Shown here piece by piece: positions 13,746-36,565 of a stretch of 64,000 bases of DNA. Below the pieces are notes generated by a model, which saw only the letters and a list, made by a program, of their open reading frames with translations, searched no databases and was not told the origin of the DNA. Position numbers and translations under genes: made by a program. The stretch comes from an uncultured Colwellia sp. (GTDB lineage Bacteria > Pseudomonadota > Gammaproteobacteria > Enterobacterales > Alteromonadaceae). Each line of letters begins with the position of its first letter. The stretch's first letter is position 1. The DNA is taken from NCBI GenBank assembly GCA_913049915.1, contig CAJWZC010000003.1:26714-90713 (forward strand), written 5' to 3'.

Positions 13746-14414
13746 TTGTCGTCTTCAAAGATACATTTAAGTAAAGCCGCCTTTACCCTCAGCGCTCCAG
13801 ATATACGTCGTTTACCGGCTGATGCTGGTATTGAAGTCGCCTTTGCCGGGCGTTCTAATGCAGGTAAGTCAAGTGCTTTAAATACGCTAACCAATCAACG
13901 TGGTTTAGCGCGCATTAGTAAAACTCCAGGTCGAACTCAGCTTATCAATGTATTTGAAGTAGCAGAGAATCGACGTCTTATCGATTTACCTGGTTATGGC
14001 TTTGCCCAAGTGCCATTAGCAATGAAGAAAAAATGGCAAAAAGCATTAGGTGAATATTTAGAAAAGCGTCAGTGCTTAAAAGGTTTAGTTATTTTAATGG
14101 ATATTCGCCATCCGTTAAAAGACTTAGATATGGATCTAATACAATGGGCTGCAGATAGTGACTTACCTGTATTAGCTTTATTAACTAAGTGTGACAAATT
14201 ATCACAAGGTAAACGCAGCTCTGAAGTACTTGCTGTGAAAAAAGTGTTAGAGTCATTAAATGCTGATATTAAAGTACAGGCTTTTTCTTCGCTAAAATAT
14301 ACAGGTAAAGAACAAGCTGATGGCGTTATTTGTGAATGGCTTGAACAAGAAGCCGAAGAGTATTTACTACCTGATGAAAATGATTCAGATGATGTAGATG
14401 AGTTTACTAAATAA
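13746..14414 (+). CDS. engB: ribosome biogenesis GTP-binding protein EngB/YihA/YsxC, probable TTG start
   Basis: G1 [13 protein letters not shown]3 DLPGYGFA, G4 TKCDK; the listed ORF start (13665) lies in apparent promoter sequence, while TTG at 13746 follows a purine-rich acgagag. Confidence 0.9.
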
Positions 14415-16372: not shown

Positions 16373-16697
16373 ATTATCCCTTAGTTTATTGCTAGTAATA
16401 ATATCGGTTAAGCGACTAGCGGGTGAGTTATTGCCAATAGTCTACGCTTTTCACTACAGTTGAACTAGAGGACATTATCTAAATAGAAGATTTTTATCAC
16501 TAATACGGTATTAAAGATTAAATAGTAAGTTATCGTTATAAGGCCAAGAGTAGTAAGAATTTTTACTGAATTTCAGGCATAAGCTTATGGGGAAGCTACA
16601 AAAAAATTATTACAATAAGTGTTCGCTTAAGAACGAGCTGATTATAGAGTAGTTACTCTTTTTCTTTGATTTAGATCATTATTAGGGCATTTGTGTG

Positions 16698-33227: not shown

Positions 33228-33938
33228 CTAATTTTCTGAAAGCGTAAACTTGAAAATAACCTGATAATCTTTTCCTAATAATTGTTCATTAGGCTTGTAT
33301 TGCCATTGTGACAACGCTTTTTTAGCAGCACGCTGTAAATTTCGACTAATACTATTTGAGACAATAGTTATATTATTAACTTTACCCGTAATATCTATGT
33401 TGTAGTTTAATTTTATCTTACCAGACTCACGTTCTTGTCTCGCGGTAATTGAGTACTCAGGTAGTACTTTATAGATTGGTTCAATCACTATTAGAGGTTC
33501 TGAAAGTGATGGTAAGGACATAACAGATACTGGTCCCGTGGTGACTATGTGAGGTTTCAATTGCTCACTTCTATTTGCTAGTTCTGGTTGCAGTGTCTTT
33601 TGGCTTATCGGGGACACATTTTCAGGTATTGGTGGTAATACCTTTACAGGTAAGGCCTTTATTTCATCTGGTTGCTTAGGAGCTAGTTCGATTAAGTTTG
33701 TTGACTGTGATGAGGCTATTGCGGTGGTTAAATTTTCTGGCAGGGTCGAAAAATGACTAATAATAGCCATAATGCCAAAAGAAGCCATGCTGCCAGCAAA
33801 AAATATAGTGAGTAATTTTAGTGGTGAATATTTTGTGTTGCTAGATTCTTGAGCAAGTATTATTTTAGGCGCAACAACTTGCTGCTTTCTTTGTTGATAA
33901 AGCGAAGTTATTTCTTCATCAAAATTGTCGCGACTCAT
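33228..33938 (-). CDS. TonB C-terminal-domain protein with a cytoplasmic N-terminus resembling an anti-sigma anchor
   Basis: 236 aa; ~45-aa cytoplasmic N-terminus (MSRDNFDEEITSLYQQRKQ), one TM (LLTIFFAGSMASFGIMAII), Pro-rich linker, TonB_C (PEYSITARQERESGKIKLNYNIDITGKVNNITIV...ALSQWQYKP). Confidence 0.8.
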   Translation of the reverse strand: MSRDNFDEEITSLYQQRKQQVVAPKIILAQESSNTKYSPLKLLTIFFAGSMASFGIMAIISHFSTLPENLTTAIASSQSTNLIELAPKQPDEIKALPVKVLPPIPENVSPISQKTLQPELANRSEQLKPHIVTTGPVSVMSLPSLSEPLIVIEPIYKVLPEYSITARQERESGKIKLNYNIDITGKVNNITIVSNSISRNLQRAAKKALSQWQYKPNEQLLGKDYQVIFKFTLSEN

Positions 33939-34495
33939 TAGTTGGTCCCTAGTATTTTTTTAAGGTTGTTACGGGCATAACGCAAACGACTTTTAACCGT
34001 CTCAAAGTTCTCATCCGTTAACTGACAAATATCCATAACAGAAAAGCCCTCTTGTTGAAAAATAAAAGCTTCACGCTGATAAAAAGGTAGAGAGATTAAA
34101 GCCTCATTAAATTCGGCTAGTTTCTCAGTATGCGCTAATTCTCGAGATAAATTAATCGTAATAGTATGTTCATCAGCTAGCGCTTGCATTTGCCACTTTT
34201 TTTGATGTCGAAGTTCATCAATTAATGTGTTTCTGGCAATAGTGAAAAGCCAGCTTTTCACATTACAGTGATCTTGAGATGTATTTTGTATAACTTTTAG
34301 CCAAGTAGTTTGTAGTACATCCTCAGCTAACTCTTTATTTGATTGGCTTAAAAGGTAGTGATATAGAGATAAATTAAATTGCTCTACCAGTAAAGTTAAG
34401 TACTTTTTATTACCGGTAGAAACATAGTCCATCAATAACTTCTTAGGAGTAATTGTGGGATTTAGCCAACCTTTTATCATTGATGGTAACTTCAA
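33938..34495 (-). CDS. sigma-70 family RNA polymerase sigma factor
   Basis: 185 aa; region 2 LAEDVLQTTWLKVIQNTSQDHCNVKSWLFTIARNTLIDELRHQKK; region 4 LPFYQREAFIFQQEGFSVMDICQLTDENFETVKSRLRYARNNLKK. Confidence 0.92.
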   Translation of the reverse strand: MKLPSMIKGWLNPTITPKKLLMDYVSTGNKKYLTLLVEQFNLSLYHYLLSQSNKELAEDVLQTTWLKVIQNTSQDHCNVKSWLFTIARNTLIDELRHQKKWQMQALADEHTITINLSRELAHTEKLAEFNEALISLPFYQREAFIFQQEGFSVMDICQLTDENFETVKSRLRYARNNLKKILGTN

Positions 34496-34503
34496 ATTAT
34501 CTC

Positions 34504-35112
34504 CTAACTTGATTGAGCCATAGTAAAATCTAACTGCACAGTAAGCTTTTTTTGGTTAATGTTTTTTCCATCAATAGATTTTGCTTTGTATTTCCACTTT
34601 TTTAACGCTTGCTTAGCTGCTTTATCAAAAACTCGCTTAGGTTGTGAACCAATAATGGAGATGTTGACTACTTCACCAATGGTATTAATATCAAAAGCTA
34701 ACACTACCCAGCCTTCAATTCCATCTCTAGCGGCACCAATAGGGTATTTAGGGTTAACTCTTACCAATGGTCTCGCTTCTCCGTCGGCTTTATTACCTAA
34801 AGATAGTACGCTAAGTGGACCACCTGTTTGCTGTAATTTTAGAGGTGAATAATTGAAATCATTATTAACTTCCCCTACATTTGGTTCGACTCTTGTTCTT
34901 GGTATTGATGGTGGGGGGGACGGTGGGTTCAAGTCAGGTCTTACTTTAACTTGAGCCTGGCTCTCATCAGGTAAGCTTACGATATCAATAGGTACACTAT
35001 CAGGTGGTAATACTAAGTTTACCTGATCATTACTAATCAAAAACGCCATAAAGGCAAATAAACCAAAGGTGATTGATCCTGAAAGTCCTGTAATTATTAC
35101 TATTCTATTCAT
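34504..35112 (-). CDS. TonB family energy-transducer-like protein
   Basis: 202 aa; N-terminal TM, Pro-rich linker (PDLNPPSPPPSIPRTRVEP), TonB_C (NPKYPIGAARDGIEGWVVLAFDINTIGEVVNISIIGS...KKWKYK). Confidence 0.88.
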   Translation of the reverse strand: MNRIVIITGLSGSITFGLFAFMAFLISNDQVNLVLPPDSVPIDIVSLPDESQAQVKVRPDLNPPSPPPSIPRTRVEPNVGEVNNDFNYSPLKLQQTGGPLSVLSLGNKADGEARPLVRVNPKYPIGAARDGIEGWVVLAFDINTIGEVVNISIIGSQPKRVFDKAAKQALKKWKYKAKSIDGKNINQKKLTVQLDFTMAQSS

Positions 35113-35345: not shown

Positions 35346-35437
35346 AAAAAAAAACCGATAGCAAAGGCTATCGGTGACTTAGCTATGAGGAAAGCTAGAA
35401 TATTCAATTATTACAACAAGCGTCCGCAAAAGGGAAC
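35346..35437 (-). ncRNA. candidate small RNA (~92 nt), minus strand, upstream of ubiE
   Basis: Minus-strand promoter-like TTGCGA-N17-TATACT (35472-35444); strong intrinsic terminator ACCGATAGC-CTTT-GCTATCGGT followed by nine T (35375-35346); internal hairpin TAGCT-TTCCTCAT-AGCTA; no ORF. Confidence 0.6.
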
Positions 35438-35443
35438 AAGAGA

Positions 35444-35472
35444 AGTATAGAGTAAATAATCTATACTCGCAA
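35444..35472 (-). promoter_or_regulatory. sigma70-like promoter for the candidate sRNA
   Basis: -35 TTGCGA (tcgcaa 35467-35472) and -10 TATACT (agtata 35444-35449), spacing 17 nt. Confidence 0.5.
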
Positions 35473-35713
35473 GTGTATTTTGTAATTTTATTTCATTTAT
35501 GTTGCTTTATTACGTAATTGCTAGCTAAATCTAGTTAAAAACCTCTTAAGGCATGGTGAAATCGTTTCTTGAATGGTAATGGTTATAAATAAGTAATAAT
35601 TTAATAAAATGGGTATTAGAGTAATAAAAAACCAGTAGGGTATTTGGTGATTTAGCATGCATACAGTAAACTGTAGGCAATTATTGTTTTAACATTGCTT
35701 TAAGTGAAATACC

Positions 35714-36565
35714 ATGTCATCAACAGATCAAAACTCTTCAGCCAATGACTTATCTACAACTCCCAATACAGCAATCGATGCTGATACTTTAGCCGACAGT
35801 TCAGTTGATACTTCAATTGAGAGTAAAAGCACTACGCATTTTGGTTATAAAACGATAGAAAAAGACGATAAAATTTCTATGGTAGCAGGAGTGTTTCACT
35901 CGGTAGCTAAGCAATATGATGTGATGAATGATTTAATGTCATTTGGTATTCATCGTTTGTGGAAACGTTTTACTATTGATGCAAGTGGCGTGCGCCCAGG
36001 TAATAAAGTATTAGATTTAGCCGGCGGTACAGGTGACTTAACGGCTAAATTTTCACAATTAGTTGGTCGAGAAGGTAACGTCGTTTTAGCTGATATTAAC
36101 AGTTCAATGTTAAATGTTGGTCGTGATAAATTACGGGATAAAGGTTTAGTGCAAAATATAGAATATGTACAAGCTAATGCTGAATACCTACCTTTTGAAG
36201 AAAATACGTTTGATATAGTCACTATCGCTTTTGGTTTACGTAATGTTACGGATAAAGATAAAGCCTTACGCTCAATTTATTCAGTGCTAAAACCAGGCGG
36301 ACGTTTACTGGTACTAGAATTTTCGAAGCCAGAAAATGAATTATTGAATAAAGCCTATGATTTCTATTCATTCAATATATTACCTAAAATGGGCGAATTA
36401 GTAGCTAAAGATGGTGAAAGTTATCAATACTTGGCGGAGTCAATTCGTATGCATCCTGATCAAGAAACATTAAAAGGTATGATGGAAAATGCAGGTTTTG
36501 AACAAACAAGTTATAAAAATTTAACTGGTGGGGTTGTTGCCTTACACAAAGGTTATAAGTTTTAA
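35714..36565 (+). CDS. ubiE: ubiquinone/menaquinone biosynthesis C-methyltransferase UbiE
   Basis: [55 protein letters not shown]. Confidence 0.96.

Follow-up and report, generated by a model that had tools for sequence, protein, structure and literature searches.

The window, the 64,000-nucleotide stretch of DNA from an uncultured Colwellia sp. that was analyzed here, carries a putative small RNA gene (RNA A) between a tonB-like gene on the minus strand, which starts at 35112, and ubiE on the plus strand, which starts at 35714 and was identified by NF001240 above its cut-off. The original prediction had described at this place a minus-strand promoter (TTGCGA, a 17-nt spacer, and TATACT), about 92 nt lacking an ORF and ending in a 9-bp hairpin plus nine T, and an internal hairpin with the exposed loop UUCCUCAU, and all of these elements, as well as the two flanking genes, are present. 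The loop was found in a UAGCU/AGCUA stem, and the nine T of the terminator include the last paired T. The terminator stem (ACCGATAGC/GCTATCGGT, 35375-35354) is perfect. The predicted fold of RNA A is unusually stable (z = -3.65), with only 1 of 200 shuffles being equally good. The 5' hairpin does not appear in the lowest-energy fold predicted for RNA A; it is kept in 139 of 146 copies, and its first pair changes from G-C to A-U in 14. In a 5-kb scan, neither promoter-like sites (16 seen versus 18.2 expected) nor terminators (3 seen versus 3.1 expected) exceeded the chance level, and the case for a gene therefore rests on the fold and on comparison. The possibility of a conserved peptide within RNA A was set aside, given the absence of ATG from the ~92-nt body on the minus strand and the variable spacer lengths between copies.

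Table 1. Features of the RNA A locus and of its surroundings in the window
Feature	Position	Strand	Remarks
engB (yihA/ysxC)	13746..14411	plus	TIGR03598, 235.8 bits (cut-off, 124); downstream neighbor of spf elsewhere
Sibling RNA (class B)	16556..16636	minus	Covariance model R1, 42.4 bits, E 3.6e-6
TonB-family gene	34504..35112	minus	Similar TonB-family gene after class A in locus L157
Small RNA A (class A; the finding)	35346..35437	minus	~92 nt; 5' G at 35437 inferred, 7 nt past the -10 box
Intrinsic terminator	35346..35375	minus	9-bp stem and T run
Central hairpin UAGCU-UUCCUCAU-AGCUA	35380..35397	minus	C-rich loop exposed
Predicted seed GCUUUCCUCAU	35385..35395	minus	Complementary without mismatch to AUGAGGAAAGC, which spans the prpC Shine-Dalgarno sequence in the same genome
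5' hairpin GUUC...GGAC	35422..35437	minus	Four pairs; arms found by pattern
-10 element TATACT	35444..35449	minus	17-nt spacer from the -35 element
Palindrome TAGATTATTTACTCTA (family consensus TAGAGTnnTTACTCTATAAT)	35448..35463	minus	Overlaps the spacer and the -10 box
-35 element TTGCGA	35467..35472	minus	CTTG kept in the class A alignment
HexR-like box TGAAATAAAATTACA	35481..35495	minus	Centered ~51 nt before the inferred start; lies just ahead of the -35 element

A DNA search matched the RNA in 39 of 39 genus genomes, and two genomes (G025 and G026) each gave a single weaker, more distant match. When 36 class A copies are aligned, a near-invariant core (GTTCC..GGAC, TTGTTGTAATAATTGAATATTCTAGCTTTCCTCATAGCTAA) is followed by a terminator stem that varies on both sides, with compensatory changes in six of its nine pairs. 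The conservation of stem, loop, and promoter in close relatives, without which the original prediction was to be abandoned, is thus present. No Rfam family reaches its threshold for RNA A; Hrs13 (23.1 bits), MicX, and rli60 all scored below gathering, and the Hrs13 match was confined to the 5' end and the terminator. A covariance model (R1), trained on 24 rows that include the window sequence, gives the copy in the window a score of 106.8 bits (E 8.5e-19) and finds matches in 77 of 249 genomes of the family, representing 18 of the 52 sampled genera, mostly as two copies per genome. This comparison (the 39 genomes, R1, and the compensatory pairs) settles the status of the element as a gene, and RNA A appears to be a real and undescribed small RNA gene, the transcription and regulation of which are inferred.

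The RNA copies were divided by us into two classes on the basis of their loop, promoter, and identity. Class A, to which RNA A belongs, has a promoter with a TGTAATnnnATTACA box and a loop that is mostly UUCCUCAU, and class B has a promoter without this box and a loop that is mostly UUCCCCAU. The class B copy of the window sits ~19 kb from RNA A. At 16556-16690, its -35 region and terminator stem have apparently been deleted between short repeats, with an intact copy being present in other species. An FNR-type site (TTGATnnnnATCAA) occurs at class B promoters in many Colwellia genomes, as ATGATCTAAATCAA at 16655-16690 of the window (minus strand) and as TTGATCTAAATCAA elsewhere (L067-L101), which suggests that class B may be under anaerobic control. 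In genus g2, two or three tandem RNA copies can occur in the polA-engB region (at 1923, 2180, and 2442 in L146; also in L147, L148, and L149).

Spot 42, the product of spf, is a classic small RNA of carbon regulation. The gene order polA-spf-engB has been reported for E. coli and A. salmonicida (PMC3295665). Outside Colwellia, class A usually has polA upstream in the same orientation, and the gene downstream of class B is often engB, which is read from the other strand. The order polA > RNA > < engB was confirmed in relatives; the window retains the engB side only and has ubiE at the place of polA. The window begins this series with engB, an MsbA-like gene, and class B; 18 kb further on come the TonB gene, RNA A, and ubiE. 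In locus L157, class A is flanked by polA on one side and by a similar TonB-family gene on the other. On the basis of the order in relatives, the engB gene of the window, and the TonB neighbor in L157, we interpret the window as a rearranged form of the spf (Spot 42) locus, in which ubiE would have replaced polA. The original prediction had correctly placed an RNA gene upstream of ubiE and had missed the spf-type locus, the sibling copy, and the HexR-like box. The gene group beside the RNA, at 33228-35112, encodes two TonB-type proteins (one TonB-family, one TonB-like) and an ECF-type sigma factor.

Spot 42 itself was not detected at this locus. RF00021, whose gathering score is 80 bits, gives no match in the genome (G000) and none in the window even at E values up to 10, and the Spot 42 5' block (GUAGGGUACAGAGGUAAGAUGUUCUAUC / GUAGGGUACAGAGGUAAGAUGUUC) is absent from RNA A. 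In searches of the same genomes, RF00021 and R1 matches fall in different genera. Four R1 genomes carry weak Spot 42 matches (27-31 bits), none of which is at an R1 place, and the absence of Spot 42 rests on a filtered covariance search. In a polA tree, built by a quick method and without Colwellia, whose copies are no longer beside polA, all 38 R1 rows lie on one side of one branch (SH-aLRT 99). Within the reach of these searches, there is no convincing Spot 42 in the carriers of RNA A, which form one clade.

Many Spot 42-bearing genomes have a second RNA in the spf-engB gap, which contains a CCUGUUG or CUUGUUG block and UAGCUUCUCCCC and is preceded by a palindromic upstream box (TTTAGAGyAAATACTTyAA) that is found in 30 of 30 cases at no more than 2 mismatches. 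Several families have it in this gap (L221-L239, L260-L268, L273, L276, and L136) and is missing from some Spot 42-bearing loci (L220, L278, L279, and others). R1 detects this neighbor RNA in most of the loci tested, about 20 in other genera and families, with a best score of 35.2 bits (E 9e-5); beyond the family of Colwellia, R1 matches are weak. Since the scores are modest (17-35 bits), homology with the neighbor leans also on position and on the C-rich core and upstream box that the two have in common. The neighbor RNA itself constitutes an undescribed family that extends across several families of the order. The body of RNA A resembles this neighbor, and its upstream region carries a HexR-like box of the kind typical of spf promoters. 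The split between R1 and Spot 42 genera, together with the single polA branch, is most simply read as one duplication of the neighbor and one loss of Spot 42.

Alternatively, RNA A could be a fast-diverged Spot 42 orthologue, with class B as its duplicate and the second RNA elsewhere unrelated. RNA A occupies the same place and orientation after polA as Spot 42 and has an spf-type upstream box, R1 gives Spot 42 weak scores at two loci (18.5 and 19.6 bits), and the stretch UGAAUAUUyUAGC recalls Spot 42, with UGAAUAUUUUAGCC visible in L250 and L253. However, the lack of any RF00021 match and of the 5' block GUAGGGUACAGAGGUAAGAUGUUC speaks against this orthology, and it is the second RNA that RNA A matches in its body, in the C-rich loop held by the AGCU stem, and in the CCUGUUG block. 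R1 detects this second RNA at its own place in the loci mentioned above. We consider a diverged Spot 42 unlikely, although it retains some standing.

The box upstream of RNA A resembles the HexR motif TGTAATTAAATTACA of V. parahaemolyticus (PMC11906056). At no more than 2 mismatches, it is found in 84% of class A promoters and 95% of the Spot 42 promoters of the family, compared with 3% of shuffles and 5% of class B promoters, and in the first two groups it lies mostly ~50 nt from the RNA start. The spf promoters of other families carry a similar element, such as TGAAAAAAAATTACA, centered mostly at -51 to -53, and for V. parahaemolyticus, TGAAAAAAAATTACA has been reported as a putative site of HexR at pgi (PMC11906056). 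In the genome of the window, hexR (NF008451) lies beside zwf with a one-mismatch motif between them, and another one-mismatch site adjoins gapA. The pattern at two mismatches is hardly enriched genome-wide (449 sites versus 420 in the reversed control), and for this reason only the single-mismatch sites (zwf/hexR and gapA) were used, together with conservation. In this genome, HexR-like boxes were seen by gapA and by gltB/folE2-like, malQ-like, and prkA-like genes (L202, L213, L216, and L217), which, except for gapA, were named by eye from sequence. Boxes that lie upstream of a promoter are believed to be activating (PMC11906056), and RNA A would therefore be high at low sugar flux. HexR control of RNA A is an inference, with binding and direction inferred as well and a repressor role not excluded, and no paper was found that places RNA A or spf/Spot 42 under HexR. 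The second promoter element, the palindrome TAGAGTnnTTACTCTATAAT, occurs at no more than 4 mismatches in 89% of class A, 100% of class B, and 0.4% of shuffles; a scan of the same genome with TAGAGTnnnnACTCTA yielded 148 sites versus 149 in the reversed control, and no regulon emerged.

The exposed loop CUUUCCUCAU is predicted to pair with the Shine-Dalgarno sequence of prpC, the gene for 2-methylcitrate synthase. The genome of the window contains five occurrences of ATGAGGAAAG, the antisense of the loop; one occurrence is the RNA locus itself, and another lies 4 nt before the start codon of prpC (identified by NF009006). Most members of the genus have the prpC motif, in leaders of two dissimilar types, and it is seen also in other genera. 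Perfect loop/prpC pairing of at least 9 bp is reached in 32 of 50 genomes versus 0.18% of 569 control leaders, and when loops were permuted among genomes, 0 of 20000 permutations reached the observed mean match; kinship among the genomes inflates both figures, and independence is overstated. Some covariation accompanies the pairing. The prpC motif is absent from each of the five Colwellia genomes in which the loop is altered, and G051 shows matching changes, with loop CUCUCCUCA and Shine-Dalgarno sequence UGAGGAGAG. In genus g19, the neighbor RNA loop UUCUCCCCGU matches ACGGGGAGAA of prpC, perfectly over 13 nt in G235, and the match is not present in every g19 genome. The pairing was not found in families f6, f15, and f21 or in several f1 genera that have the neighbor RNA. 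No genome-wide target search underlies the choice of prpC, which is, by sequence only, a conserved antisense target at a ribosome-binding site. The mechanism is likely occlusion of the prpC Shine-Dalgarno sequence, with repression being inferred. In addition, RNA A has the U-run intrinsic terminator and the conserved exposed seed that are traits of Hfq-type small RNAs; Hfq binding itself is an inference. In three genomes (L286, L291, and L298), ATGAGGAAAG is found again directly behind a start codon (ATGGCCCATGAGGAAAGACG), a possible second target.

The loop and the Shine-Dalgarno sequence are both simple in composition, and the prpC match is missing in several Colwellia genomes, including two with a normal loop (G036 and G017). 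The small RNA could thus be real without prpC being its target, its C-rich anti-Shine-Dalgarno loop merely meeting a purine-rich sequence. The rarity of 9-nt matches among control leaders, the altered-loop genomes, and the matching changes in G051 and g19 leave this little probability. The original prediction had inferred a trans-acting small RNA whose C-rich loop meets a Shine-Dalgarno-like target; the predicted prpC site is exactly the AUGAGGAAAG-type motif, and the inference is well supported by the conservation of promoter, body, and terminator and by this predicted target. That the element is no gene but a fortuitous promoter with a stray terminator, or a DNA site, is barely conceivable, since, despite chance-level promoter and terminator counts and absent expression data, the body beyond these two elements is conserved genus-wide and the covariance model, with its compensatory pairs, matches in 18 genera.

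Taken as a whole, the locus is best explained by a replaced transcript at a rearranged spf locus, with the HexR-like box kept and the prpC Shine-Dalgarno sequence blocked, and we hold this explanation with considerable confidence. As to its origin, we lean toward the spf control region having been kept while the Spot 42 transcript was swapped once by a duplicated neighbor, leading to clade-wide sibling small RNAs acting on PrpC. An ancestral neighbor RNA would have lain between spf and engB and been duplicated in the ancestor of the clade, and the class A copy would have taken the place of the Spot 42 transcript under the retained spf-type upstream box; the order of duplication and replacement is inferred. 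RNA A may then be made from its sigma-70 promoter, probably under the control of HexR (central carbon) through the box, and the exposed loop would pair with the prpC mRNA and block its translation, probably with Hfq.

Several known systems bear on this reading. The HexR regulon (PMC5343134, PMC3223726, PMC11906056) is comparable in that the HexR-type palindrome at the RNA A promoter is conserved and close to the V. parahaemolyticus motif and that the genome has hexR and a zwf/hexR site, with binding inferred. The sibling RNAs NgncR_162/163 of Neisseria target prpC, prpB, and gltA, among others (PMC9973317). They resemble the present case in being two sibling small RNAs with prpC as a target, whereas they belong to a different class of bacteria, and this likeness in how they work does not imply homology. 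A paper on Csr small RNAs of Pseudoalteromonas does not treat the locus.

VSsrna24 is a glucose-repressed second small RNA of ~60 nt between spf and engB that was reported from the Vibrionaceae only (PMC3295665). Likewise, a second RNA occupies the spf-engB gap in the Spot 42-bearing genera studied here, class B precedes engB in sister genera, and in most loci of family f21, the gap can be seen to contain a CUCUCCCGUU core. However, RNA A is predicted to be ~92 nt long, R1 has no significant match in the VSsrna24 loci (15.6 bits with E 0.63 and 14.9 bits with E 0.87), and the upstream box TTTAGAGTAAATACTTTAA was not seen in them. A relation between RNA A and VSsrna24 is suggested by position and the CUCCC core only.

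The closest comparison is with Spot 42 (spf, RF00021), a small RNA of central metabolism in E. coli and A. salmonicida (PMC3295665). RNA A shares with it the polA-RNA-engB locus and orientation, the box centered at approximately -50, and the intrinsic terminator, but the body and loop of RNA A differ, RF00021 does not match, and the core promoter palindrome TAGAGTnnTTACTCTATAAT is absent from spf. By its sequence, RNA A is not a member of the Spot 42 family, and it is one that would work like Spot 42, its regulation being inferred. If true, this would be a clear example of a conserved regulatory locus that has exchanged its transcript, Spot 42 having apparently been lost from it. With a predicted target that shows covariation of loop and Shine-Dalgarno sequence, the function can be tested directly in marine bacteria that grow in culture.
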